This document shows, piece after piece, positions 1,215 to 56,182 of a stretch of 64,000 nucleotides of DNA (position 1 is the stretch's first letter; each line of letters begins with the position of its first letter). The position numbers were made by a program, and so were the translations under genes. Source of the DNA: Botryococcus braunii (lineage: Eukaryota; Chlorophyta; Trebouxiophyceae); NCBI GenBank assembly GCA_002005505.1, contig KV908490.1, forward strand, positions 264,658 through 328,657, given 5' to 3'. The notes beneath the pieces were generated by a model. That model was not told where the DNA came from. It worked only from the letters and a program-made list of their open reading frames with translations, and did not search any database.

Positions 1215-1612
1215 TGACCATCAGCATCACCATTACCATCACCCTCAATATCGGCATCAACAGTGGGGCCACACATATTACCATCATTAGCACCACAACA
1301 ACCATATCACCATGACCATCACCATCCCCACACCATGAATATCACCACCGACCTCCCTATCACCAGTACCATGAATATCCCATGCACCAAAATATTCCCA
1401 TCACCTCCACCATGACCTTCACCATCAATATCACCATCACCATCAATGTCAATATCCCCCTGAATTTTTATACTCCCATGAATATCACCATCACCAGTAC
1501 TTTCAGCACATCCATTAATCTCAATGTCACTATCACCACCACAATCAATATCCATAACACCATCCACATCACCATCCATAACAATATTCCCATCACTATC
1601 CACCATTCACCC
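1215..1612. repeat. Degenerate (ACCATC)n tract
   Basis: About 400 bp dominated by ACCATC, ATCACC, AATATC and related hexamers, strongly C/A-biased on the plus strand. It runs directly into the minisatellite. No coding evidence. Confidence 0.85.
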
Positions 1613-1615
1613 TAA

Positions 1616-3064: not shown

Positions 3065-3078
3065 ACCCATGATCCCCA

Positions 3079-6214: not shown

Positions 6215-6580
6215 TGTGAAAGGTTATGGGCAATCGGCTTTCCCTGTACAAAGCAGACAGGTCGTCAATAGACGAAGTTACTCCAGCTACAGTCCGTACG
6301 ACTGTCTGCTGAGTGTCACACACAACTGTTGGACAAGACTAGCATCTGGTAATGCCCAGCATCTTTCACAACCAGTTGGTATTCACTCCGGTGGGGCAGC
6401 CTTAAGAGTTCATCCGACAAACGTGTGATCTAGATAGGATTGTACCTTATGTTCGAAAACGTCCAGAATCTGCCGTGTCTCAAGGTACCTTATGTTCTCA
6501 ATGGACCCATATCCTAATAGTGCACACATGAAGATCACTTAAAGCACAAGGCATTCAATAATAATGTTCAGAACTCAACA
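6215..6580 (-). repeat. Copia A 3' LTR
   Basis: A 366-bp LTR. Read on the minus strand it runs from TGTTGAGTTCTGAAC to CCATAACCTTTCACA. It resembles solo LTR H along its length but lacks the H intron and second exon copy: where H has ACAG/GTGCGG, A reads TACAG/GGAAAGCC and goes straight into the tail. Confidence 0.95.
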
Positions 6581-8680: not shown

Positions 8681-9987
8681 TGTTGGAATTTGTGTACTGT
8701 CAGGACAATCCAAGGATGACAAATTCTAACCTGAATAAATTAGCTGTATAGTTGACCATGTGTTCAACTCAAGGGAAACTCTTTAATAAACAGCCAGTGG
8801 TGTTTATGACCACAAGTAGTAATGGATAAAGTATCTAAGAACATGGTAGAGAAGGACTTTCCTGTTGTTTGTGGCTATTAAAAATGAGTTTATCCTAATT
8901 GTTAATAACGTGATAAACTCAATTGGGACAAGGGCCAATTTCCAAGGCTCTGAACCTCAACTCTGATACGAATTCATGAAAAAGGGCCAGAACAGCGCGA
9001 TCCAACGCGCTGATCTGATAATACTAGGAGCGACTGACCGACGTCTCAAGCAGTCAATCCGTTGTGTTTGTGAAACGTCTTTGTTGTCTCAAACACTGAC
9101 TCTCAGTCTGATCTCAATTAACTCTCATCTGTGTTGGCATCGTGGATGCATTGTGTCAGATTAAGAGGAGATCAGAACTGGTAAGGCGCACGTCTGTCGC
9201 TTACGTTATTCTAGCAGCCATAAGTGCTGTCTTTTGTTGACATTAACTAAGAAAATATTCTTGGTAACGTGCAGGCCTGTTAAACTGCTTCACTCATACA
9301 ATGTTGTTGATGTTGAAAGTATTTACTTACTTGGTAAGCAGTTTACGCCGCACGTTGGTTTGCAGACAATTAATCTCTTTATATTGGTTTGCAGACAATT
9401 AATCTCTTTATAATTACCAGCAAGATACTGATTGTGTAACATATACATATACATGCACAGGATGATACATGTATATGTCTCACTTATACAATGTTGTTGA
9501 TGTTGAAAGTATTTACTTACTTGGTAAGCAGTTTACGCCGCACGTTGGTTTGCAGACAATTAATCTCTTTATAATTACCAGCAAGATACTGATTGTGTAA
9601 CATATACATATACATGCACAGGATGATACATGTATATGTCTCATCATCTGTGATTTATAGTATTAAATACAAACTGGATCTTGCAGGTAATCGTTAGATA
9701 GACCAGTGTCGTATCCTACCCGTTGTAAGTCAATCCGTTGTGTTTGTGAAACGTCTTTGTTGTCTCAAACACTGACTCTCAGTCTGATCTCAATTAACTC
9801 TCATCTGTGTTGGCATCGTGGATGCATTGTGTCAGATTAAGGGGAGATCAGAACTGGCCTGTTAAACTGCTTCACTCATACAATGTTGTTGATGTTGAAA
9901 GTATTTACTTACTTGATGATACATGTATATGTCTCATCATCTGTGATTTATAGTATTAAATACAAACTGGATCTTGCAGGATCCACA
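8681..9987 (+). repeat. Copia B 5' LTR with intron-bearing leader
   Basis: Copy 1 of the leader starts at 9052. Exon 1 is 9052-9180, intron 1 is 9181-9274 (GTAAGG...GTGCAG, branch-like TTAACTAAG), exon 2 is 9275-9333, and intron 2 starts GTAAGC at 9334. A tandem duplication then repeats part of exon 2, intron 2 and part of exon 3. Exon 3 ends CTTGCAG/GTAATC at 9686/9687. Copy 2 starts at 9728, directly after TTGTA, and has no introns. One G is missing at its exon 2/3 joint (present in the right LTR). It ends TTGCAG/GATCCACA at the LTR boundary. Confidence 0.9.
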
Positions 9988-9989
9988 AT

Positions 9990-10005
9990 GGTTATGGGCC
10001 CACGC
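9990..10005 (+). promoter_or_regulatory. Copia B primer-binding site (half-tRNA type)
   Basis: GGTTATGGGCCCACGC lies two bases after the 5' LTR. It is complementary to the anticodon arm of eukaryotic initiator tRNA-Met (GCGTGGGCCCATAACC), not to a tRNA 3' CCA end. This matches Drosophila copia, which primes with a cleaved 5' half of tRNA-iMet. Confidence 0.85.
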
Positions 10006-10007
10006 CC

Positions 10008-10325
10008 ATGGAGCGACGACCATCTCTGTTGACGGACGACGAACTTAATCTGCTCCGCGAAGGGCACTTCCACTGCGATCTATGCAATAAGTGGGTGTCA
10101 GGAAAGGTTCCCATTGAAAACGTGAATCGTGCTATTGAACGTGGAATAGTTGTGTTGGAAGACTTTTGCCGAGAAGGTATTGAGCAAGAACGTCACTATC
10201 AGGCAAAGTTTAATCATCACAAGATTAAGCTAGTTCAATCACTTGAAAACTCGAAGTATCCATTTCCTAAGGGTTCGCGTCGAACCTTTTCTCTTGACAC
10301 TTGGGAAGCTAGACTGATCGATTGA
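10008..10325 (+). CDS. Copia B upstream ORF (ORF0-like, unknown)
   Basis: A 105-residue ORF whose ATG begins three bases after the PBS, well before gag (10593). It starts MERRPSLLTDDELNLLREGH, contains a CxxC (FHCDLCNKWV), then a charged helical region rich in His/Lys/Glu. It is not low-complexity and has no stop until TGA. I do not recognise it, and it does not resemble ORF0 of Copia F and G. It could be an accessory protein or a chance leader ORF. Confidence 0.5.
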   Translation: MERRPSLLTDDELNLLREGHFHCDLCNKWVSGKVPIENVNRAIERGIVVLEDFCREGIEQERHYQAKFNHHKIKLVQSLENSKYPFPKGSRRTFSLDTWEARLID

Positions 10326-10592
10326 GAAGTTTACTCTCAAAGGCTTCAAGAACAATATACCACATTAGCTAGATACGAGATCCCGTTGGATTTTTCACAT
10401 CACTGTTTATTGATTGAGTATGCTACCCTCCTTGCATTGAGTAAAGGAGCAGGGAATCGTTGAGTCCTTGGCTTTCACGAGACGAATCACCCTATGAAAC
10501 TCTGAAAGATAAGCTTGCTGAGACGAACGCCTCAATTGTGAATGATTTAGAAGACGGTACAGAGCAAAAGTGCAGGTGTTACATTCCCAGGC

Positions 10593-12337
10593 ATGGCAAC
10601 ATTGGCTACGAACCCTACCCCAGGTAATCCATCAAATCCACAAGTAAATCAACCCTCAGCTGGTAATACTAGTCAGTCTGCCCAGTCAGGTAATAGCATA
10701 GATCAGGCAAACCCTGTTTATTCTAATCTAAAACTGGTTCAGGCGTTAGACCTGGATTGTGAAAATGGTTTTAGATGGCAGAAAGATGTTCTGAATGTCG
10801 CTAGTAGCAAACGTATTAAGATGTGCCTTGATGAAGAGCATCCTAATACAGCTGGAGACTCTCTTGCTATGAGTCTTCTAACTGAGAAAATTCCTGACGT
10901 TTGGGTGGACAGGGCATTGGACATGCCAAACGCAAACCATGCCTATGACTGGCTGCTGCGCAAGTTCACTGGTGGCCACAATGAGGAGTTAATGAGGAAA
11001 TGGTCCAAGGTCTTGGACTATGGGCGTATCGATGAGGGTCAGGAGTACCATTCATATGTTGCTTGGAAGTTCAGGATTGCAAGAGGTCTACAAGCCAATA
11101 ATCACCCATGCTCTGATGGTAGGCTAAAAATGGGGATTGTAGAGGGTTTGCCCAAGCATTTTGACCATGCCAAATCAAATCTCTACACCTCCTGTCTTGG
11201 TGAGGATGAGGACAAGGTCACACTCAATATTCAGGCATGTTCAAGGTTGCTTGGAATTGATGAATTTAAGGCCCCCTCACCATCAGTCAATCTGATCAAT
11301 CCAGTCAGAGGTCCCCCTCGTCCCAGGAACGCTCCAGGATCCAGGCCACAGGGGATGCCAGAAGATCTGCCTGACAACTTCAGGGGCTGCTGGCACTGCT
11401 TGGAAGATGGACATACCAGAAACGTGTGTCCAAAACTTATAGCTGAGAAAGAAAAAAGGGCTGCCCTCATTTCAGCACGCAAGAATCAAGCCAATCCAGT
11501 TGGAGGTATTGCATTGGGGGACTCTTCTGACTCAGGTAATCCATTCTCTAGATGGGTGGTAGACTCAGGAGCCTCAACACACATATGCAATGATGTTAGA
11601 CTCATGCAAAACATTCACTGGTATACACAGCCAAAGGGTCTAAATTTGGCAACTGGTGAACATGTTGCACAACGCAAGGCATGTGGCTCTGTGTGTCTAG
11701 TAGATGAAATGGGGAACATGTGTAAACTTAAAAATGTAGAATATGTACCTACTGCTATTGAAAATTTGTTGTCGGTCTCTAGTGCAGTAACAGATGGCAT
11801 CATGTTTACAAACAATTCACATGGAGAGATTATCAGTATGTATAGCAATACTTCAAAATTCATCTCTGAAGTCAGAAAAGAAAGAGGACTGTATTTTGTT
11901 TACTGCTTGTGCTGCAAAATTCAGCCCTCACATATTGTTGGATACGCTCACAAATGCTCTGAATATGATTTGTGGCATCAACGCTTGGGACATCCAGGAA
12001 GTAAAAACCTGGAACGATTGCAGACTGAGGATATGGTGAAGGGAATAGCTACATCTCTGTCTCCTTGCTTACATGGTCATTCACTGTGTGATGTGTGTGT
12101 GATGGGCAAGCAGACTAAAGAGAGCTACCAAAGATCCCCAGTATCAGCAACTGAACGTCTTCAGCTGTTGCACTTGGATGTAATTGGTGAGCTACCAATT
12201 CCAGGAGCTGAGGGTGAACGCTACATGCTCACAGTACTAGACGATTACTCTAGAGCTGGTGAATCCGTAGCATTGACTTCCAAGTCCCAGGTGGGTGGTG
12301 CTGTTAAGTCAATCATCCTGTACTTGGAAAATCATAC
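10593..12337 (+). CDS. Copia B Gag, protease and N-terminal integrase (5' part)
   Basis: ATG at 10593. A copia-type Gag (VYSNLKLVQALDLDCENGFR... LLRKFTGGHNEELMRKWSKV) leads to the zinc knuckle CWHCLEDGHTRNVC (about 11390-11430) and the aspartic protease WVVDSGASTHICND (about 11554). Next come the GAG-pre-integrase HHCC-like segment (LWHQRLGHPG, about 11970) and the first integrase Asp (LHLDVIGELP, about 12172). The frame is intact up to the gypsy C insertion after CATAC at 12333-12337. It continues in the same frame at 18555. Confidence 0.95.
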
Positions 12338-12539
12338 TATAGCGGCAAAGGAAGAGAGAGAGAGACGAGACACCAGTCAGGTTAGAGCATTCAGCGGAAT
12401 CTGTTACAAGCCGGTCAGCACCGGGACTTCCTTCGACGCCAAGACGCGTGCCACTTTCCAGAGCCTTAATTTCAGGACCCGGTTGCTTCCTGCCCAAAAT
12501 CCTACACATTTCAGGACCTGGCAGCTTCCTGCCGTTACA
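12338..12539 (-). repeat. Gypsy C 3' LTR
   Basis: 202 bp, identical to the right LTR except GGTTGC versus GGCAGC near 12480. It has a GA-rich (GAGAGAGAGAG) segment near one end. Confidence 0.95.
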
Positions 12540-12966
12540 ACTTCCCCCTCCCCTACATGGGAGCGTCCTCGCTCACATCAGAGCAGTCATCACGAGCAAG
12601 ACTCTGTAAGGTAAGAGTTCTTCAAGCAGTGTACATGCCGTCTACACTCAAGCAACAATATTGTTTTACACACATAGCTTAGGCGACAAATTTGTTGAGC
12701 CTCCAATGGTGAGGTACGCCAGGGTACGTCAGTGAGCTTTGTTCATCATCATTCATTGCTTGAAATTGTCATGGCGGGCTTCAAAGTGGATCGATGATCT
12801 ACACTTAACATCATGCGCGCGCGATACAGCTCACCGTACTGAACTTCCCACTTGTATAACAACGGGGTGACACGCGGGGAGCAACTAAGCCCTGCTCCCT
12901 CCCCCCGGCGGGCAGCCATGCTGTACCCGCAACAAACAAGTGCAGGAAAAGATCGCCTCTCCGTGT
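12540..12966 (-). other. Gypsy C 3' untranslated region and polypurine tract
   Basis: The polypurine tract (plus-strand ACTTCCCCCTCCCCTA, 12540-12555) adjoins the LTR. The remaining 410 bp up to the integrase stop contain no ORF that I can support. Confidence 0.8.
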
Positions 12967-14694
12967 CTAAGTCCGCCTCTTCTTAGGCGCAGTATTCGTA
13001 GTTGCTGAGGCATGCGCATTACTTCGCTTCTTAGTACCGTTGCCTGCAGCCGCGACACCTTGCGTGCGCTTCCTTGTTCCCACCTTCTCATTGAGAGCGC
13101 GACCAGCCCAGTACTCCTGGACAACCTCTTGGGCATGTTCTATTAATCCTGCTTCTGGTTCCCATGAGTTTCGCTCAGGCCCGTAGCCTTTCCATTTTAC
13201 CAAGTATTCTTTCTTCGGCGCATGGTGCGCAGCCTTCTTCTCTCGATGCATCAAAATACACTCCACCTCGTATTCCCAATCACCATCAATCCAATCTGGC
13301 GGAGGTGAGGGAGCCACACTGACACCCTTATGATATGGCTTCAACAGCGACACATGAAACACATTGTGAATGGTGTATTCATCAGGCAACTCCAGCCTAT
13401 ATGCAACAGCGCCAATTCTAGCCAAAATCTTGAATGGCCCAATGAAACGAGGCAAAAACTTCTTGGTGCCAGGATGCTTCCAACGAATATTCTTAGTGGA
13501 CAAGAGTACTTCTTGCCCAACTTCATACTCAACATGTCTGCGCCCCTGGTTAGCATAAGTGCGCTGCCTATCTTGTGCCTCAATCAGGTTGCGCTTCGCT
13601 AACGCGAGATCATCATGCAACTTTATAGCAAATCTTTTAGCCGACGGAAAAGTGGTCCCAGAAATCACTGCAAAAGGCTCAATAGGATCCTCCCCATACA
13701 CCAACCGGAATGGAGTTGTGCGAACGGATTCTTGATAAGCATTGTTATAAGCGAATTGTGCGGCTGGCACATGCACATCCCAATCATGTTGTGTAGGACT
13801 AACATAATGCCGCAACATGTCTTCCACAATGCGATTCACACGCTCAGTTTGGCCATCAGTCTGTGGATGATAAGCCGTTGAAAAGACAGACCTCGTGCCC
13901 AAAATTTAAAACAACGCTTTAGTGAAGGCACTCGTGAACACCGTTCCGCGATCAGTCAACACCTCTTTAGGCATACCGTGCAGCTTAAACACACGATCCA
14001 CAAACACATCAGCAAGACCTTCAGCAGACAGCTGATCAGTTGTTGGGATGAAATGCGCATATTTAGACAGTCGGTCCACAACCACAAGGATAGCATCATT
14101 CCCGTTCACCGTTTTGGGTAAGTCAGTAATAAAATCCATGGAGATGCTTTCCCACCTTCGTGAAGGAATTGGTAGAGGCTGCAGCAGACCAGCTGGCAGT
14201 GAGGTATCCACCTTGTTGCGCTGGCACGCATCGCAAACGCGAAGAAAATCTTCAACACCTTCCCTCAGCTTCGGCCACCAAAAATACCGTTGTATTTTCT
14301 CCAACATTTTAGTCCGGCCCACATGGCCTGCCTGTGGCACTTCATGGTTTTCTTTGAGAATGGCTTCTTTGAGCTCTTTATCTTTACCAGCTGCCATTTC
14401 GGGAACATACATTGCTTTTCCACGGAACCAGTAACCATCTTTAGCGACCAACTTCGCTCTTTGTCTTTTACGCCCATCCCTTAGAAGATGATCCTTCTCA
14501 TACGCGGTCCGTATGCGGTGCAACCAGTCTTCCCCATCGGGGCACCACATGGTGAACCCATCCGGGCACGCGTCGCCCGAGTCACTTGCTGCTCCAGGGA
14601 CCACCCCACCTAATGGCGGGGCCGTACCGCCTCCAGTGGAATGCGCCCCCTTGCGCGTAAGTACAGCACACCTAATACGATGACCTATGCCGCG
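12967..14694 (-). pseudogene. Gypsy C integrase with chromodomain
   Basis: The integrase has a zinc-binding region (HEVPQAGHVGRTKM... CDACQRNK), catalytic Asp in SMDFITDLPK and VLTDRGTVFTS, and STAYHPQTDGQTERVN with the catalytic Glu. The C terminus has a CHROMO domain (YEVECILMHREKK... YLVKWKGYGPERNSWEPE, about 13280-13130) and a basic tail ending PKKRRT, which marks a chromovirus. A TAA at 13906-13908 replaces what is probably Gln. The link to RNase H is broken at the G8 run (14695-14702): RT and integrase differ by one base of frame. Confidence 0.9.
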
Positions 14695-17600
14695 CCCCCC
14701 CCATCGCGACCCTATGCTGAACAGAGCCCCTAGGAGTGTGCACCAAAGAACTAACGACGAACGCTGGATTCCTACTCAAAGGGTCCGCAACATTAGTACG
14801 ACCGGGCTCATACTTCCACTCTATAGAGTACATCTGGAGCAACTCCGACCACCTGGCTTGCCGAGGGCTCAAAACCGATTGGGACGGCAAAAACGTGTTT
14901 GCTGCATGATCAGTGACCACTTCAAAGGGTTTCCCAAGGAGATAACATCGCCAATCAGTCAATGCCATACACACTGCAGCCAACTCTTGCTCGGTGACAT
15001 GATAATTTCTCTCAGCATCAGAAAATTTCCGGCTCATATAGGCACATGGGCGTCCATTTTGCTCAAGCACAGCACCAACACCATTCTTTGAGGCATCACA
15101 CACGACCCGAAACTTAGGCGCATCCGGGGAGAGATCAGGGATTGCCAACACTGGGGCATTTGTGATGGCCCACTTCAACCCATCCGGATCAATCTTGATT
15201 CCATGCTTCCCCACAATAAAGCCAAGATAGCGTAGTTCAGGCTGACAAAAAGAACACTTCTTTAGCTTCACAAACAATTTCGCTTCACGTAGGCACTCGA
15301 ACACTTTTTGCAAATGCTCTTTATGCTCTTCCTCGGTTTTAGAGAAGATCAAAACATCATCAAGGTACACTACCACAAAGCCTTCAGCCACAAAGTCATG
15401 GAATACGCGATTCATCATACGTTGAAAAGTAGCGGGGGCATTTGTCAAACCGAAGGGTAGAACTTTGAACTCATAATGGCCAAAAGGGACACGGAAAGCA
15501 GTTTTGGGAACATCTTCCTCTTGCAAGCGAATTTGGTGATAGCCAGAGAGTAAATCAAGACTTGTAAAGCACACAGCACCTTGCAGTTTATCAAGCAACT
15601 CATCAATCCGCGGGAGAGGATAACGATCAGGGACAGTAATGCGGTTTAACGCACGATAGTCGATAACCATACGCAACGTGTCATCCTTTTTCTTCACAAA
15701 CAGAACAGGGCTGCTAAACGGACTGCAACTTGGTTGAATCAATCCCTGCTCAAGAAGTTCAGCAACCTGTCTCTGTGCTTCTTGCAACTCAGGCAAAGCT
15801 AAACGGTAACCAGGTCGGGATGGAGGAACATGTTCACTATACAATGGGATAGTGTGGAACAGATGTCTGTCAGGAGGTAGGCCTTCTAATTTCTCAGAAA
15901 AGACATCACTGAACTCAGCACGAAGATGTTGACAAATGGGGTGATTCAATCCACTTTTATCAGAAGGGACATCGGCCTTGTTTGTAGGCCCAAAAGCAGG
16001 TTCGAACTCTTTAACATCATGATCATAATCGCTATGCCCTTCGTTACGCGCTTCGTTGCCCTCTTGCCTATCAACATGTTCATGCCCTTGCTCATCCGAG
16101 CGTGTCTCGTTATCATGCCCTTCATTCTTGCTTACCATGCCCACAAACACTGGACAGCCTTGCTTCATACAGCGCGCCAAATGCCTCGCAGAGATGACAG
16201 GGGACTTCTTTCTAGCGCTCTTAGCAGTAGCAGAAATAGACTTAACAATCACGCCTCGCCCTCTGTTCCAAAATGTACACGTATCTTCCGCTACATCAAT
16301 CTTGGCCTTATAACGCTTAAGGAAATCCATGCCCAACAAGACATCACAGTCACCAGCCAACTTTGGTAGCACATAATAAGTATGCACACAAGGCAAAGAC
16401 TTGAAAACTGTTCTCAACTTCACTTGATGCACCACTTTTGCAATGTCACCCGTGGCCACTTCCACTTCCAATTCATCCACTTGTTGCGGGGTTATGTTCA
16501 CTTTCTTCAGAAATTCTGCCGAGATGAATGAGAGTTCTCCCCCGGTATCAACTGCACAATCAGCGGTTGCCCCTGCAACCATACCGTGCAAGACCATTTG
16601 CGCTTCGGGGTGTTCTTTTCTCACCATTGATATACTGGGCCTCTTCTTGTCATACCACACTTCAAAAGACCACGGAGCCACAATTCTCTCTTCCCCATGC
16701 GCACTTTTCAAAGCTACACTTTCGTTGCGCCTCCCCTCCATAATTCTCTCTTTACTTTTTAAAAGGGGAGCAACACTTACTGCCTTAGCCACTCGTTTGG
16801 GCAAAACAAAATAAGCGCCAATCTGACGGGCATTCTTCTTCAGGGCATTATACTCGGAGAGCACTTCATGGGCTTTTTCGGGCTTAAGCACGAACGCATA
16901 CACATGACCATCTTGCAGGTTCACTTGGGGTAGATCTTCACAAACAAGGATTTCAATTCCAGGTCCCCATTCCAAACAAACATGAGCAGCCACAAGTTTT
17001 GAGAAAGATAAGTCTTCATACCAGCCAAAGCGCCCACGCCCACGAGATGATCCACGCCCACTCGGTGCATTGCCGCGACCAGAATTTGGGGGACCGGCGT
17101 GATGTGCTGGGGCTTGGGGTACCTGCGCAGATCCTTGCGAGAACCCGGGAGTCATAGGGCACTCGGACTGTTTGTGGCCAGGGAGGCCACACCCATAACA
17201 AGTGAGCGGCATGGACTGGGATGGAAAAGACCCATGATGAAAACCCGGGACATGGCGATGATGCGAGCGATCACCGCGATCAAAACCGCGACCACGAGCA
17301 CGAAACCCACGAGCCTTAAACACACCGCGCGGACGACCAAACCCACGATCGAAACGACCAAACCCACGATAAGCATGGTGATTCGAAGGAAACATATCGG
17401 AACCGCGCGAACGAAACCCTTCAGCGACAGTATCATCGAGCCCGTGAGCGATCTGGTAGAGCTCCATATACGAATCGAAAGCACGGCCAGTTTTGTGGTT
17501 AATTCGACACTGAGAATGCAACGATGCACGCAACCCATTCAGAAAATTCGTAACCTTCTCATTCTCCGTGACCTCCCCACCAGGCATGGAATTCAGGTCG

Positions 17601-18295
17601 GCAAGAGCGGAGTTAAACGCCAAGGCATACTCCTGAACAGACTTCGAACCTTGACGAACCCCCTGCCAGTGGCGGCGGGCCTCCGTCACCCCTACATTCT
17701 TGTCATAAAAACCAAACAGGAATTGCTGAAAATCTTCGAAAGTAGGGGAAGGATGGGTTACTACATACGAGGACCAGTGACCCTGAATGCTTGTAGAGAG
17801 AAATGAGACGCCAACGCGAAGCTTTTGCTGGTCATCGTTGATTCCCTGTGCCTCAACATAATTCTTAACAATAGCAACCCAGTGCCTAGTGTTATTTCCC
17901 GTGAACACCGGCGGCTTGCCTAACGCATTAGACGGAAGCTTGTGCGACACCGCAGGATCACGAGCAACCTCCGTCATAAAAACCTTTCGCGCATAACTTG
18001 TAGCCCAGACAGGACGAAAAGCAGCAAGAGCACCTATCTTTAGAAATTTAACAGTAGCGACATAAAACTGGGCAATCGAACTAATGATCAGATCCGTATG
18101 ATCGCCGACATCGTAGTTATCGCGCGCCACCTCGACCTTACACTTCGCCATCAGTTCATCAAAATCCTTCTTACGAAACCTTGGGTAGTCACTATCAAGC
18201 GTGAGATCCAGTGCATCAAGCTCGGCAACATCGCTGGCCGCACCCAACTTCTCACAATACGACGTAACCAACGTGGTGAAAGTAGCTGCCGACAT
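14672..18295 (-). CDS. Gypsy C Gag-protease-RT-RNase H polyprotein
   Basis: ATG at 18295 (MSAATFTTLVTSYCEK), 1207 codons without a stop. The retrotransposon Gag domain (HWQGVRQGSKSVQEYALAFN) is followed by an Arg/Gly-rich basic stretch and the zinc knuckle CYGCGLPGHKQSEC (about 17200-17160). Then come the protease with DTG (CAVDTGGELSFIS, about 16550), RT with MVIDYRALNRITVPDRYPLP and catalytic YLDD (about 15355-15370), and RNase H with VVCDASKNGVGAVL and TDHAANTF. It ends shortly after the G8 run at 14695-14702, which shifts integrase into another frame. Confidence 0.95.
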   Translation of the reverse strand: MSAATFTTLVTSYCEKLGAASDVAELDALDLTLDSDYPRFRKKDFDELMAKCKVEVARDNYDVGDHTDLIISSIAQFYVATVKFLKIGALAAFRPVWATSYARKVFMTEVARDPAVSHKLPSNALGKPPVFTGNNTRHWVAIVKNYVEAQGINDDQQKLRVGVSFLSTSIQGHWSSYVVTHPSPTFEDFQQFLFGFYDKNVGVTEARRHWQGVRQGSKSVQEYALAFNSALADLNSMPGGEVTENEKVTNFLNGLRASLHSQCRINHKTGRAFDSYMELYQIAHGLDDTVAEGFRSRGSDMFPSNHHAYRGFGRFDRGFGRPRGVFKARGFRARGRGFDRGDRSHHRHVPGFHHGSFPSQSMPLTCYGCGLPGHKQSECPMTPGFSQGSAQVPQAPAHHAGPPNSGRGNAPSGRGSSRGRGRFGWYEDLSFSKLVAAHVCLEWGPGIEILVCEDLPQVNLQDGHVYAFVLKPEKAHEVLSEYNALKKNARQIGAYFVLPKRVAKAVSVAPLLKSKERIMEGRRNESVALKSAHGEERIVAPWSFEVWYDKKRPSISMVRKEHPEAQMVLHGMVAGATADCAVDTGGELSFISAEFLKKVNITPQQVDELEVEVATGDIAKVVHQVKLRTVFKSLPCVHTYYVLPKLAGDCDVLLGMDFLKRYKAKIDVAEDTCTFWNRGRGVIVKSISATAKSARKKSPVISARHLARCMKQGCPVFVGMVSKNEGHDNETRSDEQGHEHVDRQEGNEARNEGHSDYDHDVKEFEPAFGPTNKADVPSDKSGLNHPICQHLRAEFSDVFSEKLEGLPPDRHLFHTIPLYSEHVPPSRPGYRLALPELQEAQRQVAELLEQGLIQPSCSPFSSPVLFVKKKDDTLRMVIDYRALNRITVPDRYPLPRIDELLDKLQGAVCFTSLDLLSGYHQIRLQEEDVPKTAFRVPFGHYEFKVLPFGLTNAPATFQRMMNRVFHDFVAEGFVVVYLDDVLIFSKTEEEHKEHLQKVFECLREAKLFVKLKKCSFCQPELRYLGFIVGKHGIKIDPDGLKWAITNAPVLAIPDLSPDAPKFRVVCDASKNGVGAVLEQNGRPCAYMSRKFSDAERNYHVTEQELAAVCMALTDWRCYLLGKPFEVVTDHAANTFLPSQSVLSPRQARWSELLQMYSIEWKYEPGRTNVADPLSRNPAFVVSSLVHTPRGSVQHRVAMGGARHRSSY

Positions 18296-18330
18296 TATAC
18301 CCAACAGGTAGATTAGCAAAACCTTGCTTT

Positions 18331-18344
18331 ACTCGCCGATACCA
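18331..18344 (-). promoter_or_regulatory. Gypsy C primer-binding site
   Basis: On the minus strand, TGGTATCGGCGAGT lies three bases after the 5' LTR. TGGT pairs with a tRNA 3' ACCA. The same 12-13 bases are found in gypsy D and Copia E, so all three probably use one tRNA, likely initiator Met (plant tRNA-iMet ends GATACCA). Confidence 0.8.
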
Positions 18345-18347
18345 CCT

Positions 18348-18549
18348 TATAGCGGCAAAGGAAGAGAGAGAGAGACGAGACACCAGTCAGGTTAGAGCAT
18401 TCAGCGGAATCTGTTACAAGCCGGTCAGCACCGGGACTTCCTTCGACGCCAAGACGCGTGCCACTTTCCAGAGCCTTAATTTCAGGACCCGGCAGCTTCC
18501 TGCCCAAAATCCTACACATTTCAGGACCTGGCAGCTTCCTGCCGTTACA
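18348..18549 (-). repeat. Gypsy C 5' LTR
   Basis: 202-bp copy bordering the PBS on its left and the TSD CATAC on its right. Confidence 0.95.
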
Positions 18550-18554
18550 CATAC

Positions 18555-21210
18555 TAATCACAATGTTAAGGTGGTTAGGTCTGATAGGGGAAGTGAGTTT
18601 GTAAATGCTGACTTGCTTGACTTTTTTCAGTCTAAAGGGATCAGACATGAAACGTCTGCTCCTTATACCCCTCAACAAAATGGAAGAGCAGAACGTTTTA
18701 ACAGATCCTTGAAGGAGAAAGTTAGAATGCTTCTTTTGCAGGCAAAAGCACCACAAGGCATGTGGGCGGATGCACTTCCAACAGCTGTTAGGTTGTTGAA
18801 TCTCAGAGCAGTAAAGGGGAAGACAGCCACCCCCTATGAACTGCTGTTTGGGAGGAAACCATCAGTGCACTACTTAAGAGTGAGGGGATGCTTGGCGTTT
18901 ATCAAAATACCAGATAAGGATCTTTCAGCCTTTTCGGCTAGATCTGAGGCTGGAATGTTTGTGGGATATGAGCCTGCATCAAAGGCCTACAGAGTTAAGG
19001 TGGGGAACAAGGTAAAGGTGTCAAAGAACGTCAAATTCTTTGAAGATAAACTAGGAATTCATGCTCTCAATCCCAGTAATTCTCTCACTGCTGAATTCTC
19101 CCATGAGATAAATTTTGATCAAGTTCCATGCACTGATGATGGGGATGATTGGGATTTTGTACCGGTAGACCTCACTGGTGCATTGGAATTAAACAGGGAA
19201 GCTGGAAGGGGTATTGTCCCAACTCTCCCAGCTAACATGGAAGTCATGCACAGGATGAATGATATCCTGAGAGGCTTGGGAACAGCGGAAGAGAGTGGTC
19301 CGAGTAGGTTATCTGGGCCAGGAGCTCCAAGGGAAGGAGTAGTGGGCACTGGGAACATGCAAAATCCAGTGTCACATGCATCAGACAGTTCAGGTGAAGA
19401 ATTAGATAATCAACCTTCTGCTGAAACCAGTGACTCATTTGAGGAAATACAAGGTGGTGCCAGGAATGGTGGAGGCAGATACGAACTGAGGCAAACGTTG
19501 GCAGAACCAGACAGGTATGTTCCGGGTACATACCACATTGGGGAAGCGCCAGTCACATATGCATCAGAAATAATCCCTCCAAATCAAAATGGTGCACAAG
19601 AGCAAGTGAAATTATCATCCAAGAATATCAAGGTTCCAGAGGACTGGTGGGAGGCTAAAAAATTCCCACAGTGGCCATATTGGTTAGAAGCCATGAACGA
19701 AGAGATGGATTCTATAGACTCTCATGAAACGTTTGAATATTGTGAGAGACCCTCTGATGCCAAAATTATTCCTCTAAAATGGGTCTATGCTCTAAAGACT
19801 GACAGTTTTGGTGATATTGTCAGATTTAAGGCGAGACTGGTGGCACAAGGTTGCAAGCAAAGGCCAGGTGTTGACTACTTTGAAACCTTCGCTCCAGTAA
19901 GTACACACACATCTAGGAGGGTGCTGTTAAATCTAGCTACGTCAAATGGGTGGAAAGTTCACCAAGTTGATGTGAAAACAGCATTCCTAAATGGAACACT
20001 GGATGAGGAAGTGTACGTAGCCCAACCTCCCTGTTTCTTTAATGGCGATTCTAATGTTGTGTGCAAGCTACTAAGATCTTTGTATGGTCTGAAGCAAGCA
20101 CCACGTGCATGGCACAAGTGTCTGGTTGAAGAGCTTGGAAAATTTGGGTTTATAGCCTGTCAAAGTGATCCAGCGCTCTTCATTAACAAGGAGTCATTCA
20201 AGTCATACGTATACTTGTTGGTATGTGTGGTTGATTTGCTGATTGTGAGTGAGGATGTGGAATGTATTCAGTGTGTTAAGCAACAGCTGACTAGTATATT
20301 CTCAATTCACGATCTTGGTGAGATAAAGTCATTTTTGGGCTGTGAAATCAAGATAAATGAATCCTCACATACTCTGAAAATGACCAATGTTCTAAAAATT
20401 GAGAAATTGGTGGAAGAATATGGGCTGCCTGATCAGGGGAAGGAGGTTGATACACCCATGTCAGGTTCCTTCTTGCCTACCCAAATGCCTGAACCTCCTA
20501 AAGGGATGACTGGAGAGCAGATTGGATCAGGAATTCCCTTACCAGAAGGTCACAGGTATTTAGAATTAATTGGTTCACTACAGTATTTGTCAACAACTAC
20601 AAGGCCTGATATTTCTCAAGCTGTGGGGATGTTGAGCAGATTTAGAGGACAGCCAACAACATCCCATTGGAATGGAGCAATTAGAGTACTGAGGTACCTC
20701 AACTGCACCAAATACATGGGAATTAAGTATACTGGATCAAATCAAAATGAACTGGTATGCTTTGTGGATGCAGATTTTGCAGGTGATCTGGACAGTAGAA
20801 AATCCACAACTGGGTTTGTGTTTCTATTGAACGGATCTGCTGTATCCTGGTCAAGTAAGAGGCAAACTTCCATAGCAACATCCACTGTGGAGTCTGAATA
20901 CATTGCTGTGAGTGCAGCAGTGAAAGAAGCCATGTGGGTGGGAAGTATGCTCTGTGAGTTGGGAGAAGAGATCACATGTGTAACCATGTATTGTGATAAT
21001 CAGGGGTGTGTGTCAAACCTGAGAAATCACATGGTCTCTAAACACACTAAACACATCAGTGTGAGTTACCATCATGCACGAGAGAAGGTGGTTTGGGGTC
21101 AGATTGATCCTACATATGTGCCAACTACTGAAAATGTAGCTGACATGTTCACAAAGCCACTAGCATCTACTGTGTTTGAAAGGCATCGTAACAAGTTGGG
21201 AATGCAGTAA
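18555..21210 (+). CDS. Copia B integrase core, RT and RNase H (3' part)
   Basis: Continues the frame from 12337. It carries integrase VVRSDRGSEF (second Asp) and APYTPQQNGRAERFN (Glu), an acidic linker, then RT (QVDVKTAFLNGTLDEEVYV, LYGLKQAPRAWHK) and RNase H (FVDADFAGDLDSRKSTTGF, CDNQGCVSNL, ADMFTKPLAST). The RT active site is altered. Where relatives read YVDD, B reads CVVD (20224-20235), so the Tyr and the first catalytic Asp are both replaced. QPPGF is also changed to QPPCF. The RT is predicted inactive even before the gypsy insertion is considered. Confidence 0.95.
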
Positions 21211-21248
21211 CTAATTGTTGGCATGTCCTGAAAGTACAAGGGGAAGAT

Positions 21249-22354
21249 TGTTGGAATTTGTGTACTGTCAGGACAATCCAAGGATGACAAATTCTAACCT
21301 GAATAAATTAGCTGTATAGTTGACCATGTGTTCAACTCAAGGGAAACTCTTTGATAAACAGCCAGTGGTGTTTATGACCACAAGTAGTAATAGATAAAGT
21401 ATCTAAGAACATGGTAGAGAAGGACTTTCCTGTTGTTTGTGGCTATTAAAAATGAGTTTATCCTAATTGTTAATAACGTGATAAACTCAATTGGGATAAG
21501 GGCCAATTTCCAAGGCTCTGAACCTCAACTCTGATACGAATTCATGAAAAAGGGCCAGAACAGCGCGATCCAACGCGCTGATCTGATAATACTAGGAGCG
21601 ACTGACCGACGTCTCAAGCAGTCAATCCGTTGTGTTTGTGAAACGTCTTTGTTGTCTCAAACACTGACTCTCAGTCTGATCTCAATTAACTCTCATCTGT
21701 GTTGGCATCGTGGATGCATTGTGTCAGATTAAGAGGAGATCAGAACTGGTAAGGCGCACGTCTGTCGCTTACGTTATTCTAGCAGCCATAAGTGCTGTCT
21801 TTTGTTGACATTAACTAAGAAAATATTCTTGGTAACGTGCAGGCCTGTTAAACTGCTTCACTCATACAATGTTGTTGATGTTGAAAGTATTTACTTACTT
21901 GGTAAGCAGTTTACGCCGCACGTTGGTTTGCAGACAAGTAATCTCTTTATAATTACCAGCAAGATACTGATTGTGTAACATGCACAGGATGATACATGTA
22001 TATGTCTCATCATCTGTGATTTATAGTATTAAATACAAACTGGATCTTGCAGGTAATCGTTAGATAGACCAGTGTCGTATCCTACCCGTTGTAAGTCAAT
22101 CCGTTGTGTTTGTGAAACGTCTTTGTTGTCTCAAACACTGACTCTCAGTCTGATCTCAATTAACTCTCATCTGTGTTGGCATCGTGGATGCATTGTGTCA
22201 GATTAAGAGGAGATCAGAACTGGCCTGTTAAACTGCTTCACTCATACAATGTTGTTGATGTTGAAAGTATTTACTTACTTGGATGATACATGTATATGTC
22301 TCATCATCTGTGATTTATAGTATTAAATACAAACTGGATCTTGCAGGATCCACA
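21249..22354 (+). repeat. Copia B 3' LTR, reference form of the intron-bearing LTR
   Basis: Copy 1: exon 1 21620-21748 (129 bp), intron 1 21749-21842 (94 bp, GTAAGG...TGCAG), exon 2 21843-21901 (59 bp), intron 2 21902-21987 (86 bp, GTAAGC...CACAG), exon 3 21988-22052 (65 bp) followed by GTAATC. TGTAA is at 22090-22094. Copy 2 is 22094-22346 (253 bp), equal to 129+59+65, with both introns precisely absent. The tail GATCCACA closes the LTR. I infer that copy 2 is a reverse-transcribed copy of the spliced leader. Confidence 0.93.
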
Positions 22355-28222: not shown

Positions 28223-29669
28223 ATGAGTGGCACATATACTGTGCCACCCTATGCTAATGTTGAAGAATCATATGAAGTACCAATTGTGATTGAGGATGAT
28301 CCCTCAACCGTTTACAATAATGAAAGCTTTGAACAATCATATTCTACTCAGAGAGACTCAAGGGGCTACACCTCTAGTGCAGGTGCAGGTGCCAACAGCT
28401 CAACGGAGGACAGTGAAGCTGAGGGGCGCCACGCAGGGGACGTAAGTGATGAGTATCTATACGGGGATTATGATCACTCTGAGTCTCTTCCTGCTGATCC
28501 TGCTGGTCAACCCCTAGCTGTATCTGTTCCTGCTGTAAGCTCAGGCACCTCTCCTCCTAGCGGTATGCCTCCCAACCTCCCTTTAGATCCTAGCAGTGTC
28601 AAAAGAGCAGTCAGGATTAATCCTGTGCCTGTTTCAAGCGCTCCTAGGGTTCTGCGCAGACCTCCACAGTCTGCAGTTTCAGGGTCCAGGACACTTACTA
28701 GTGGTCCTTTACAAGTGCCCGTTTCACAATATTCTGCTGTGACAATCCAGCCAGCTAGTGTTCCAGTTATTACTGGTGATGCAATCGTTCCAGCAGCAAC
28801 TTTAGCTGGTTCACAGACAACTGTGTATTTACCACTGGCTACTGGGGGCATGATCCCCATTTCACTACCTGCCGCAACGCTGAACCAGATCTCTAACCCA
28901 TCTTTGGTTCAGCCAGCTAGTGTGCAGGTACCATCCAACTTTGGAGTGTCAACGTCAGCTTCAGCAATTCCAGCTGGAGGCCCTCCTGGTGGTGGCTACC
29001 CATACAACACAGGCAGCAGTCCTCCTGGAGGTGGGCCACCATACAGTGGGGGTCCCCCTGGAGGAGCAAGCTCGATTTGGCATCCTCCACCAGTCTCAGG
29101 CAACTACCCGCAATACCCTGTTTATCCGGGCTCTTGTGGGAATGTTCCTGGTGGCTTTGGTGGGGGTGGTCCTGGTGGTCCTGGAGGACCAGGCGGTCAT
29201 GGTGGACCAGGTGGTGGTGGTTGGGGTGGTCCTCCTTTTAGTCAGGGGCCACCATATAGTGTTGGGCAAGGTCAATTTCCAAACGTAGGTATTCCTGGTC
29301 TGCCCATCATAAATCCAACCACTGGTCCTTCGTTCTCTTCTCATCAGAAGTGAACTCCAAAGATTGAGTGAGTCAAGTTAAATGATACCAATTGGTTGAC
29401 ATGGACAAAGCAAGTGTATGCTATGCTGTGGGAAATGAATGTCAACTACTGTGTTCATGATGATTATCAGGGAGCTTATGATGATTTCAAAGCTCAAACC
29501 ATTATCACTCAAGCATGTACTGAGCAATATTCTGTTCAGATTACTGACTTGACAAGTGCTTACCATATGTGGAACAAGCTGCTGCAGGTGTTTAACGCTA
29601 GAGCAGCAGCTAGGCTCATGAGCCTCCACAGGGAGCAAAAGTTATTTGCCATGAAGCCAGGTGAAAAAC
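28223..29669 (+). pseudogene. Copia E Gag, N-terminal part
   Basis: ATG at 28223 (MSGTYTVPPYANVEESYEVP) opens a long Ser/Pro- then Gly/Pro-rich extension (GGGGPGGPGGPGGHGG near residue 310) up to TGA at 29351. Six codons later comes a second TGA (29369). The same frame then carries a typical copia Gag core (KLNDTNWLTWTKQVYAMLW... YHMWNKLLQVF). Without the stops, Gag would have an unusually long low-complexity N terminus of about 375 residues. Copia F entered after AAAAC at 29665-29669. The Gag core resumes at 44340. Confidence 0.8.
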
Positions 29670-30364
29670 TGTTAGGTTATGGGCTTGGCGTATTCCTGTG
29701 TGGTGGCAGCACGGAGGGTGTTAGACCAGTGTCGGCTCTACTGTGTGAAGAGAAGTAGAGAAAGAGACACCGTCAATCAAGGACTGATTGGCAACGTGAG
29801 TGAAGCACCCGAAGTGCTGTGATAGTCCCAATCAAGTCTATTACAACATGCACTCTATCACTCTCGTAACAACGGAATTCAAACTACCCTAGTCTGTTCT
29901 CACTCAGTTCTGGGTGGTCTCATTGTCCGATGAATGGAAAGTCAAGCGCATACACCTAACATAATAAACTAAAAGCATTCAGAGTCTCAAACAAGCTATC
30001 CTAACTACGCACACATTACCTGTGTGGTGGCAGCACGGAGGGTGTTAGACCAGTGTCGGCTCTACTGTGTGAAGAGAAGTAGAGAAAGAGACACTGTCAA
30101 TCAAGGACTGATTGGCAACGTGAGTGAAGCACCCGAAGTGCTGTGATAGTCCCAATCAAGTGCCTTGCCTTGCTGCGCAGCCACCACTACCTTCTTGCAA
30201 CAAACGTGTGTGTAACTTGCGTTATTGCTATCCACATTCAAATGTACATAACCTAGTGCTGAGTCACGTCTCGGCCCGATTTGTCTTGTATTATTATCTC
30301 TGGCGGAATTGCCAATATTACTCCTGTGAGGGAAAGGCACTAAATATTATTATCTATTACAACA
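29670..30364 (-). repeat. Copia F 3' LTR
   Basis: Read on the minus strand, leader copy 1 is 30161-30020 and copy 2 is 29837-29696 (142 bp each), with TGTAA between them just before copy 2. One visible difference from the 5' LTR is C for T near 29772. Confidence 0.95.
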
Positions 30365-36139: not shown

Positions 36140-37018
36140 TGTTGAATGAATTGGTCAATACTGTACTTAGTGACATCCCCTGTCACATGCCATCAACAGC
36201 AGTGTAAACTATAGCCGTTATAGCCCTTTATGAACGGTATAGATCATACTCGTACCTCAATGACATAACACGTGACTTGTACGATATGCGTTCTCAATAG
36301 ACATTACGTATGGTAGTACTTTAGGATCCCTGCAGTCCGAGCCATCCCTGGGCAGCCCAGGAACGGCTCGGTACTTGTCCGAAGCATGTTGGTATCCTTG
36401 ACCAACCTCTACTGTTGGAGAGTGCTGTGTGCTGTTCCTGGAAACGTTGTAGCGTGGACGGTTTTTCCCACAGGCTACGAAGTGACGCTGCCGTCGTGCC
36501 ATCACTGCAGGTGTGTTTAGGATTCTCAAAGCCGTTCCAGATATGATTGTGCTCAAACATTCAGACCAGTTAGATATTACTGCTGTGTGCATTGATGAGA
36601 GTGCATGACGAGAGCGCACTGAATGTTTGACCTCATTGAGACTTATGTTGACGTCCACCGTTGTGGCGGTAAGATAGTTTCACTGTACAAACATCACAAA
36701 GAGACCTTGCTGAGTTACTGATGAACTATTATTGTATTCTAGTGACGTAAAGTAGACATCGCAAGGCCTCTTTGGTGCTGAACTCTGCTATCAGGCAAGG
36801 CGTAGTGTTACGTGGTCTTTAGCAAGAGTGAGAGCAGTTAAGATCATTTGTAAGACTTGTCCGAAGCATGTTGGTATCCTTGACCAACCTCTACTGTTGG
36901 AGAGTGCTGTGTGCTGTTCCTGGAAACGTTGTAGCGTGGACGGTTTTTCCCACAGGCTACGAAGTGACGCTGCCGTCGTGCCATCACTGCAGGTGACGCC
37001 GCAAGCAGAAATGCTTGA
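36140..37018 (+). repeat. Copia J 5' LTR
   Basis: Leader copy 1 is 36373-36510 (138 bp), ending ACTGCAG and followed by GTGTGT. TGTAA is at 36849-36853. Copy 2 is 36855-36992 (138 bp), ending ACTGCAG and followed by GTGACGCC and a 26-bp tail to the LTR end. Confidence 0.95.
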
Positions 37019-43623: not shown

Positions 43624-43639
43624 TGGTGGGCCCATAACC
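43624..43639 (-). promoter_or_regulatory. Copia F primer-binding site with LTR-PBS hairpin
   Basis: On the minus strand GGTTATGGGCCCACCA follows the LTR directly. The LTR end carries GCCCATAACC, giving a perfect 10-bp stem with GGTTATGGGC around the 5-nt loop TAACA. Confidence 0.8.
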
Positions 43640-44334
43640 TGTTAGGTTATGGGCTTGGCGTATTCCTGTGTGGTGGCAGCACGGAGGGTGTTAGACCAGT
43701 GTCGGCTCTACTGTGTGAAGAGAAGTAGAGAAAGAGACACTGTCAATCAAGGACTGATTGGCAACGTGAGTGAAGCACCCGAAGTGCTGTGATAGTCCCA
43801 ATCAAGTCTATTACAACATGCACTCTATCACTCTCGTAACAACGGAATTCAAACTACCCTAGTCTGTTCTCACTCAGTTGTGGGTGGTCTCATTGTCCGA
43901 TGAATGGAAAGTCAAGCGCATACACCTAACATAATAAACTAAAAGCATTCAGAGTCTCAAACAAGCTATCCTAACTACGCACACATTACCTGTGTGGTGG
44001 CAGCACGGAGGGTGTTAGACCAGTGTCGGCTCTACTGTGTGAAGAGAAGTAGAGAAAGAGACACTGTCAATCAAGGACTGATTGGCAACGTGAGTGAAGC
44101 ACCCGAAGTGCTGTGATAGTCCCAATCAAGTGCCTTGCCTTGCTGCGCAGCCACCACTACCTTCTTGCAACAAACGTGTGTGTAACTTGCGTTATTGCTA
44201 TCCACATTCAAATGTACATAACCTAGTGCTGAGTCACGTCTCGGCCCGATTTGTCTTGTATTATTATCTCTGGCGGAATTGCCAATATTACTCCTGTGAG
44301 GGAAAGGCACTAAATATTATTATCTATTACAACA
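43640..44334 (-). repeat. Copia F 5' LTR with duplicated leader exon
   Basis: On the minus strand, copy 1 is 44131-43990 (142 bp), ending CACACAG and followed by GTAATG. TGTAA is at 43815-43811. Copy 2 is 43807-43666 (142 bp), ending CACACAG and followed by GAATACGCC and a 26-bp tail. Each copy contains AGCAC-UUCGG-GUGCU, a small hairpin. Confidence 0.93.
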
Positions 44335-45015: not shown

Positions 45016-45745
45016 TGTAAACTTCTGAGCTTGGCGTTTCCTGTATGACCCGGCACGAGGGTGTTTAGCCTGGCGACACTCTTGTTGTGTGTCGAGTAAC
45101 AAGCAGTGTCGACTGTGAATAAGGTGACTTGACTGGCAACAGTGAAGTAGCAAACACCCGAAGTGCTTTTGATGTCCCAATCAAGTCTTACAATGCTTAT
45201 TGCTTTCTCTCATCACTCAGCAATTCAAACTACTCTATCTACGAAGTTACTGATAGTCTGCATTACCGATGTCCGATGAGCTAAAACATTAGCACCTTTC
45301 TAATACACATTATCTAGACCCTTTCCTAATCCATTGTTCTTGTGCACGTCATGTCCTGACAACAGTTTACCTGTATGACCCGGCACGAGGGTGTTTAGCC
45401 TGGCGACACTCTTGTTGTGTGTCGAGTAACAAGCAGTGTCGACTGTGAATAAGGTGACTTGACTGGCAACAGTGAAGTAGCAAACACCCGAAGTGCTTTT
45501 GATGTCCCAATCAAGTGCCTCATTCCTTCGAGCCAGGAGCATATAGCTTTTCGAGCAAACCGTGTCCGATCACCTCATCCTCCCTTATTAACGTATAATT
45601 GGTCTAGATTCGTTCTGGCAGAACTCCTAGGTTCTGCCACCTATTACTCATTCTAATAAATGTTCTCACTGGTAATTGGAACTGATCTGGCCACTATTAC
45701 TCTTCTGAGGGAAAGGCACCAAAATATTCTATCACTATTATAACA
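45016..45745 (-). repeat. Copia G 3' LTR
   Basis: Leader copy 1 is 45516-45371 and copy 2 is 45186-45041 on the minus strand, with the same boundaries as the 5' LTR. Confidence 0.95.
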
Positions 45746-54404: not shown

Positions 54405-55134
54405 TGTAAACTTCTGAGCTTGGCGTTTCCTGTATGACCCGGCACGAGGGTGTTTAGCCTGGCGACACTCTTGTTGTGTGTCGAGTAACAAGCAGTGTCG
54501 ACTGTGAATAAGGTGACTTGACTGGCAACAGTGAAGTAGCAAACACCCGAAGTGCTTTTGATGTCCCAATCAAGTCTTACAATGCTTATTGCTTTCTCTC
54601 ATCACTCAGCAATTCAAACTACTCTATCTACGAAGTTACTGATAGTCTGCATTACCGATGTCCGATGAGCTAAAACATTAGCACCTTTCTAATACACATT
54701 ATCTAGACCCTTTCCTAATCCGTTGTTCTTGTGCACGTCATGTCCTGACAACAGTTTACCTGTATGACCCGGCACGAGGGTGTTTAGCCTGGCGACACTC
54801 TTGTTGTGTGTCGAGTAACAAGCAGTGTCGACTGTGAATAAGGTGACTTGACTGGCAACAGTGAAGTAGCAAACACCCGAAGTGCTTTTGATGTCCCAAT
54901 CAAGTGCCTCATTCCTTCGAGCCAGGAGCATATAGCTTTTCGAGCAAACCGTGTCCGATCACCTCATCCTCCCTTATTAACGTATAATTGGTCTAGATTG
55001 GTTCTGGCAGAACTCCTAGGTTCTGCCACCTATTACTCATTCTAATAAATGTTCTCACTGGTAATTGGAACTGATCTGGCCACTATTACTCTTCTGAGGG
55101 AAAGGCACCAAAATATTCTATCACTATTATAACA
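54405..55134 (-). repeat. Copia G 5' LTR with duplicated leader exon
   Basis: On the minus strand, copy 1 is 54905-54760 (146 bp), ending CATACAG and followed by GTAAAC. TGTAA is at 54581-54577. Copy 2 is 54575-54430 (146 bp), ending CATACAG and followed by GAAACGCC and a 25-bp tail. A TATATG lies about 27 bp before copy 1. Confidence 0.93.
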
Positions 55135-55484: not shown

Positions 55485-56182
55485 TGTTGAGTTGTGAACA
55501 TACATCGAATGCCTTGTGCTTTAGGTGATCTTCAAATGTACATTATTAAGATACGGGTCCACTATCCACATAAGGTACCTCAAGACACGTTCGGATGAGG
55601 TCTATTTCGAACATAAGGTACAATCTGATTTAGATTACGCGTTAGTGTGAAAGGAATATTAAAGCTGCGATCACCGCATAGTCGAGCAACTGGTTTGGAA
55701 AGATACTGGGCACATAAGGATGCCAGTCTTGTTCATGCAGTTGCATGTGTCTAAAGAGCAGACAGTCGTCAAGGACTGTAGCTGGAGAGGCACGAACTTA
55801 CGACCTCTCTGCTTGCTTACAGGTGCGGTGACGCAGGGTGTGTATTGGTAATGTGTTCATGTTTGATTGCTTGTTTGTAAGTGAACCATCTTAGTGGATA
55901 ATCAAGTCTCCCAAACAGCTAAGGGACGGAGTCTTGATTGAGTATAGGAAGGTACTTGCTTTCAGCCGTCAGGAGCTTATCCGTGTGTAGATGCTCATTG
56001 ACAGATCAACATGTAATGGAACTGGTTTGGAAAGATACTGGGCACATAAGGATGCCAGTCTTGTTCATGCAGTTGCATGTGTCTAAAGAGCAGACAGTCG
56101 TCAAGGACTGTAGCTGGAGAGGCACGAACTTACGACCTGTCTGCTTGCTTACAGGATACGCCACTGCCCATAACCTTTTACA
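55485..56182 (+). mobile_element. Solo LTR H (Copia A-related family)
   Basis: 698 bp, TGTTGAGTTG...CTTTTACA, TSD TATAT (55480-55484 and 56183-56187). Leader copy 1 is 55688-55822 (135 bp), ending CTTACAG and followed by GTGCGG. TGTAA is at 56012-56016. Copy 2 is 56020-56154 (135 bp), ending CTTACAG and followed by GATACGCC and a tail containing GCCCATAACC. No internal region or second LTR exists, so it arose by LTR-LTR recombination. Removing it restores the E frame. Confidence 0.92.

Follow-up and report, generated by a model that had tools for sequence, protein, structure and literature searches.

An LTR element should lose any R-region intron to splicing in a single replication cycle. How, then, can a Copia element carry introns in its LTRs? 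The question is raised by an insertion of a family termed here Copia B, which spans positions 8681-22354 of the window (the entire 64,000-nucleotide stretch of DNA that was analyzed, C162:264658-328657, part of a 176-Mb assembly). The insertion is flanked by the target site duplication (TSD) GTTTG and is interrupted by a second element (LTRs at 12338-12539 and 18348-18549) that is Gypsy-like by reading of its frames.

The 3′ LTR of Copia B contains two copies of one leader sequence (Table 1). Copy 1 is composed of three exons (E1, E2 and E3) separated by two GT-AG introns, and copy 2 consists of three consecutive parts that are 100% identical to these exons, with introns 1 and 2 missing exactly to the base. 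The preliminary description of this locus, which presented copy 2 as the exact sum of the copy 1 exons, is thereby confirmed. Its second observation also holds: the 5′ LTR (8681-9987) has the same design save for one G lost from copy 2 and a local duplication of about 200 bp at intron 2. Its inventory was correct for introns 1 and 2, but it missed a third GT-AG pair (22053-22346), the TGTAA motif bordering copy 2, and four further families with the same outer design.

Table 1 Features of the Copia B insertion and of related LTRs in the window (window coordinates).
Feature	Position	Strand	Remarks
3′ LTR, Copia family B (TGTTGG...CCACA)	21249..22354	+	TSD GTTTG
5′ LTR, same Copia B insertion	8681..9987	+	local duplication at intron 2
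Copy 1 exon 1 (129)	21620..21748	+	first base is the putative transcription start
Intron 1 (94; GTAAGG...GTGCAG)	21749..21842	+	CTAA motif within last 50 bases in 56/56 long LTRs
Copy 1 exon 2 (59)	21843..21901	+	
Intron 2 (86; GTAAGC...GCACAG)	21902..21987	+	
Copy 1 exon 3 (65)	21988..22052	+	CTTGCAG at end
Putative outer intron 3	22053..22346	+	GTAATC donor, linker, whole copy 2, CAG acceptor
TGTAA, putative poly(A) signal	22090..22094	+	overlaps first base of copy 2; 55/56 long LTRs
Copy 2, intronless E1E2E3	22094..22346	+	rewritten with transposition
LTR tail GATCCACA (U5 end)	22347..22354	+	
Primer binding site TGGTTATGGGCCCAC	9989..10003	+	
Family C 5′ LTR (edges by reading)	36140..37018	+	copy 1 36373-36510; GT...CAG intron 36511-36992; copy 2 36855-36992
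Family D 5′ LTR (aligned-repeat range)	43636..44334	-	copy 1 44131-43990; copy 2 43807-43666
Family D 3′ LTR (aligned-repeat range)	29666..30364	-	copy 1 30161-30020; copy 2 29837-29696
Family E 5′ LTR	54405..55134	-	copy 1 54905-54760; copy 2 54575-54430
Family E 3′ LTR	45016..45745	-	design as in family E 5′ LTR
Family F solo LTR	55485..56182	+	TATAT flanks both sides; copy 1 55688-55822; copy 2 56020-56154
Family G LTR, single exon copy (conventional short form)	6215..6580	-	about 75% like F

In several features, the element resembles Ty1/copia, and we file its design as a variant of that group. A RVT_2-type reverse transcriptase (RT; PF07727, 207.9 bits) is encoded in 18571-21207, and an integrase lies upstream of it in the same frame (core end at residues 2-52, RT at residues 386-630), its match to rve_3 being just above and that to rve below the cut-off. 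The LTRs have TG...CA ends and 5-bp TSDs (GTTTG in the window, matching TSDs in eight more family-B pairs). The tRNA primer site GGTTATGGGCCC follows the 5′ LTRs of B and of four related families of the window (C, D, E and G). This site (TGGTTATGGGCCCAC/GGTTATGGGCCC) resembles that of Drosophila copia, which is primed by a half initiator-Met-tRNA. RVT_2, an integrase preceding the RT, a GAG-pre-integrase, the 5-bp TSD and a primer site beside the LTR are all shared with Ty1/copia, whereas the storage of introns and of a spliced copy of the element's own leader in the LTR is not. Ordinary copia LTRs are plain U3-R-U5. In Copia B there is no single co-linear R, since copy 1 holds introns and the spliced form is stored downstream (given the putative limits of R), which marks a variant within copia, not an exclusion from it. 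The named relatives of the Pol frame include the green algae Micractinium and Chromochloris as well as land plants and an arachnid, and a scan of viral contigs found no close relatives. A 105-amino-acid frame just past the primer site and upstream of gag (10008-10325) has no Pfam match at E ≤ 0.001.

The third GT-AG pair encloses the whole of copy 2. Copy 1 ends in CAG and continues with GTAATC; copy 2 ends in CAG and continues with GATCCACA. A splice from the GT at 22053 to the CAG at 22346 would place GATCCACA directly after E3, in a context identical to that of copy 2, and then the primer site. Without this outer splice, the strong-stop cDNA would hold both copies and the LTR would grow. 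Splicing, the start site and the poly(A) site of Copia B are predicted here from sequence.

The design recurs throughout the genome. The spliced E1/E2 junction has 55 exact matches genome-wide and the unspliced E1/intron-1 junction has 64, as opposed to none for a reversed control pattern in the same exact search, so the design exceeds what chance would produce (first genome search: 40 of 167 candidate places scored, at least 45 matches). Segmentation of 64 family-B LTRs, with classes assigned by hand from the order of parts, gave 56 long, 6 short, 1 extended and 1 partial LTR. The long design comprises U3, the intron-bearing leader E1-i1-E2-i2-E3, a 41-bp linker and the spliced E1E2E3; the short form is U3-E1E2E3-tail. 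The long class includes seven cut or damaged members (L013b, L047, L049, L056, L059, L060, L069). Excluded before counting were truncated or split LTRs (L057, L066, L067, L068), L046, whose locus is that of L074, and incomplete inverted pieces within L020, L025, L031 and L041. As L011/L012 and L059/L060 share flanks and may represent allelic or duplicated contigs, these counts are not all independent.

Splice signals are preserved across the long LTRs. The donor GT is present in 56/56 for all three introns, and the acceptor AG in 55/56 for intron 1, 53/56 for intron 2 and 51/56 for the outer intron, the failures being due to cut or deleted ends (L013b, L059, L060, L069), point changes (L035, L062) or a lost base (L073). 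Intron 1 has diverged more (0.075 substitutions per site) than the copy 1 exons (0.026-0.047), and intron 2 (0.041), the linker (0.038) and U3 (0.036) have changed no faster than the exons (all in 45 LTRs). Segments of copy 2 unrelated to the GT-AG borders, which according to the preliminary description would speak against a spliced origin, were found in odd single cases only, and these resemble later damage: copy 2 of L050 has 32 extra nucleotides, and L059 and L060, with their flanks in common, carry deletions. We considered alternative splicing as the source of the extra stretch in L050 and rejected it, because the stretch is not intron 2 and resembles a local duplication.

If a spliced cDNA had been added to the LTR once and then inherited passively, as the preliminary description held in calling copy 2 a permanent part of the LTR, the exact exon sums and the common order of parts in 56 long LTRs would be explained, yet the two copies should since have diverged independently. 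We examined exon changes on a tree derived from U3, the introns and the linker of 55 LTRs (nine truncated or odd ones were left out), pruned to 47 long LTRs for the count. On internal branches, 27 of 35 changes occurred in both copies. The 8 one-sided changes are confined to three sites (113, 149 and 150) around the divergent tip L073 and are read as placement ambiguity. Terminal branches, on the other hand, carry 128 one-sided and 21 two-sided changes; L073 accounts for 9 of the two-sided ones and L055 for 5. The preliminary description suggested that the two parts should co-vary among genomic copies, and they do: at the 27 sites with a variant in at least two LTRs, copy 1 matches copy 2 in 1241 of the 1269 LTR-by-site cells, compared to a maximum of 1042 in 2000 permutations, a comparison in which relatedness remains, unlike in the tree count and in the pair test below. 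With one-sided changes almost all terminal, and with families D and E (described below) in agreement, we consider a single past event extremely unlikely. The origin of copy 2 by reverse transcription of spliced RNA, also part of the preliminary description, is supported. Its permanence does not survive: copy 2 is renewed with transposition.

The timing of this renewal is revealed by twelve LTR pairs, nine of which are the 5′ and 3′ LTRs of one insertion according to their matching TSDs (for the 5′ LTR of the window, exon 2 was trimmed to its first 59 bases owing to the local duplication). These nine pairs contain 26 private one-sided changes and 0 two-sided ones, and no difference between copy 1 and copy 2 is common to both LTRs of any of the nine. 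Among the remaining pairs, the head-to-head LTRs L013a/L013b, which are not a TSD pair, display 5 private changes and 1 shared copy difference; L011/L012, which share flanks and are not a TSD pair either, show no change; and L018/L028, separate insertions on one contig with different TSDs, are set apart by 4 sites changed in both copies and 1 changed in a single copy. Resident copies thus drift apart and agree again after transposition, which places the copying within the replication cycle. On the DNA evidence, copy 2 acquires the exon sequence of copy 1, minus the introns, with transposition.

The same data bear on whether gene conversion or unequal exchange between the repeats maintains their likeness at the DNA level. 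Direct repeats recombine easily, and the six short LTRs and the extended L061 are the expected products of an E1-E1 exchange; indeed, the C261 insertion (shared TSD AAAAG) has a normal 5′ LTR (L022) and an extended 3′ LTR (L061), the growth of which, on the 3′ side only, may be a later event. However, conversion would have to stop precisely at both borders of a 59-bp exon, repeatedly, and none of the 64 LTRs has a copy 1 that lacks exactly one intron or a two-unit arrangement in which copy 2 has gained an intron. Furthermore, no homogenization is seen in resident insertions (0 of 26 changes in nine pairs). We therefore find this explanation very unlikely.

Several unusual LTRs that we initially took as proof of spliced cDNA were dropped for related reasons. 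The short LTRs (L048, L053/L054, L064/L065 and L071), which sit at three separate places in the topology of the FastTree tree, could be read as spliced cDNA that landed on copy 1, but an E1-E1 exchange gives the same product. The extended L061 was set aside on the same ground. In L074, the end of exon 2 stands, by reading, in place of the intron-2 acceptor, joined through a microhomology of 2 bp, and copy 2 itself could have supplied the junction. Two further observations concern the arrangement of these LTRs. L010 (5′, long) and L071 (3′, short) lie on different contigs, have the flank GGTAC in common and differ at 1 position in U3, and may belong to one insertion. In L013, L020, L025, L031 and L041, family-B LTRs adjoin whole or partial inverted LTRs, with no spacer in 4 of the 5 cases.

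Self-comparison of the window uncovered internal LTR repeats in four further families, C-F. Two Gypsy-like elements and family G have LTRs free of such repeats. The layout in C-F consists of an exon, GT, a linker, TGTAA, 1-3 nucleotides, the same exon ending in CAG, and a tail; the exon and the putative outer intron measure 138 and 482 nucleotides in C, 142 and 324 in D, 146 and 330 in E, and 135 and 332 in F (with one mismatch in F). The primer site is present after the 5′ LTRs of C, D and E. F is a solo LTR without Pol in the window and is filed as Copia owing to its likeness to G only. By best local match, with pieces assigned by position, the Pol of B is 49-52% identical to those of C, D, E and G, which are 61-75% identical among themselves (best local match). 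Given their common exon starts and related Pol proteins, families C, D and E are not independent of one another.

Joint change of the two copies is also seen outside family B. The family D sample comprises 22 LTRs (20 stretches chosen from 42 listed and two in the window), in which all 4 variant sites shared by at least two LTRs (37, 83, 100 and 121) are changed in both copies; five more two-sided sites occur in L121 only, and one-sided changes are all single cases. Family E (6 LTRs: 4 of 40 listed and two in the window) has five two-sided sites, two of them in one LTR and one only in the window's own pair, and two one-sided sites, both in L127. In family C, the query of 882 bases is matched in full by 24 of the 30 fetched LTRs (the window's own two are among the 30) and over 881 bases by the other 6, and two intact exon copies are present in 30/30; such near-identity provides no test of joint change. 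It is a sign of a recent burst, and family C may be the most active.

Family D is informative about the RNA start. Both copies begin with ACTTGATTGGG in 22/22 LTRs. Copy 1 is preceded by GGC in 20 LTRs and by GGT in 2 (L119 and L120), and copy 2 by TAG in 16, TAC in 2, TTG in 1 and AG in 1, whereas L119 and L120 again have GGT. The matching GGT would fit a start a few bases further upstream in that lineage; L119 and L120, which are on one contig, may be the two LTRs of a single insertion. At the other end of the RNA, the last base of TGTAA is the first base of copy 2 in B, and in C-F the motif precedes copy 2 by 1-3 nucleotides. The main poly(A) signal of Chlamydomonas is TGTAA, located 14 nucleotides upstream of the cut on average (PMC3439250), and by analogy it is the putative poly(A) signal of these elements. 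The genome is probably that of a green alga, as suggested by light-harvesting genes (35 matches to PF00504 in the assembly, with one such exon being closest to Lhca3-type photosystem I antenna chains in the PDB) and by some of the named Pol relatives; the RuBisCO large subunit had no match in this assembly. Transcription could instead start at copy 2, in which case copy 1 would be a duplicated stretch of U3 without a role and splicing would be unneeded. With a poly(A) site just inside copy 2, the same LTR would be rebuilt. We judge this very unlikely, because changes in copy 1 would then have no route into copy 2, and such a start leaves both the GT-AG borders and the missing introns unaccounted for.

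Splice-coupled strand transfer is probably what lets the Copia B LTR keep its introns. The renewal of copy 2 is evident from the DNA, and we propose the following steps for it. Transcription would start at the first base of copy 1. The 5′ leader would lose introns 1 and 2 and the outer intron, and the RNA would begin with E1E2E3-GATCCACA-primer site, as suggested by the exact borders. At its 3′ end, the RNA would be cut about 14 nucleotides past TGTAA, a few nucleotides inside copy 2. Because this part of the RNA lacks the acceptor of the outer intron, that intron would stay unspliced there and survive. Primed by a half initiator tRNA bound to the primer site, the minus strong-stop cDNA would be the complement of the spliced leader. 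It would pair via the first few exon nucleotides with the RNA 3′ end and be extended across the linker and the unspliced copy 1 into U3. The new LTR would thus obtain its intron-bearing copy 1 from the parental 3′ LTR and its copy 2 from the spliced parental 5′ leader.

Among the points counted against this model are the following: (i) the predicted RNA 3′ end of family B includes introns 1 and 2 in full, and their splicing there should at times yield LTRs of the form U3-E1E2E3-linker-copy 2, which are absent (0/64); (ii) at site 28, a variant is present in copy 1 only in L014 and L073, which are far apart in the tree, although this variant may be recurrent; and (iii) of the introns, only intron 1 has changed faster than the exons. 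We think it likely that copy 2, in effect U5, is not directly inherited but is rewritten each cycle as spliced-leader cDNA, that the outer intron is kept since the RNA 3′ end precedes its acceptor, and that this is common to distant Copia families of one genome, probably a green alga's.

Spliced LTR elements and intron-keeping Penelope-like elements are already known. HIV-2/SIV has an R-region intron in its LTR leader, a position comparable to the putative one in Copia B; there, the unspliced RNA is the genome, and no spliced copy is known to be stored in the LTR. In plants, splicing of the RNAs of the LTR elements Ogre, EVADE and BARE1 is described as yielding subgenomic or short GAG RNAs (PMC12786077), whereas the introns of Copia B are within the LTR and its spliced RNA would be the replicating template. 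Retrotransposition of Penelope-like elements apparently permits intron retention; these elements belong to a different class, and what is discussed for them is an antisense template rather than the transfer of a spliced strong-stop cDNA (PMC3846280). A literature search by title and start of abstract, with most subscription journals outside its coverage, returned no LTR in which the spliced form of its own leader is stored. If the proposed mechanism is correct, the design is a way round the loss of R-region introns in which splicing becomes a required part of replication. Each LTR would then record the start and the spliced leader of its parental RNA, making transcript structure readable from DNA. 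Long LTRs whose internal repeats would be annotated as tandem duplications could also be explained in this way.

The window holds other repeats as well. Two 791-bp copies (46479-47269 and 48912-49702) are 99.9% alike, have inverted ends CCAAGGACAAATATTTTGTGCA and resemble a DNA transposon or MITE, and a long tandem repeat array occupies 1598-3075. Finally, the tails of the D, F and G LTRs (e.g. 43636-43660) hold CCCATAACC, which reads as the primer site core GGTTATGGG in reverse complement, so that the LTR end and the primer site could form a hairpin in these three families.
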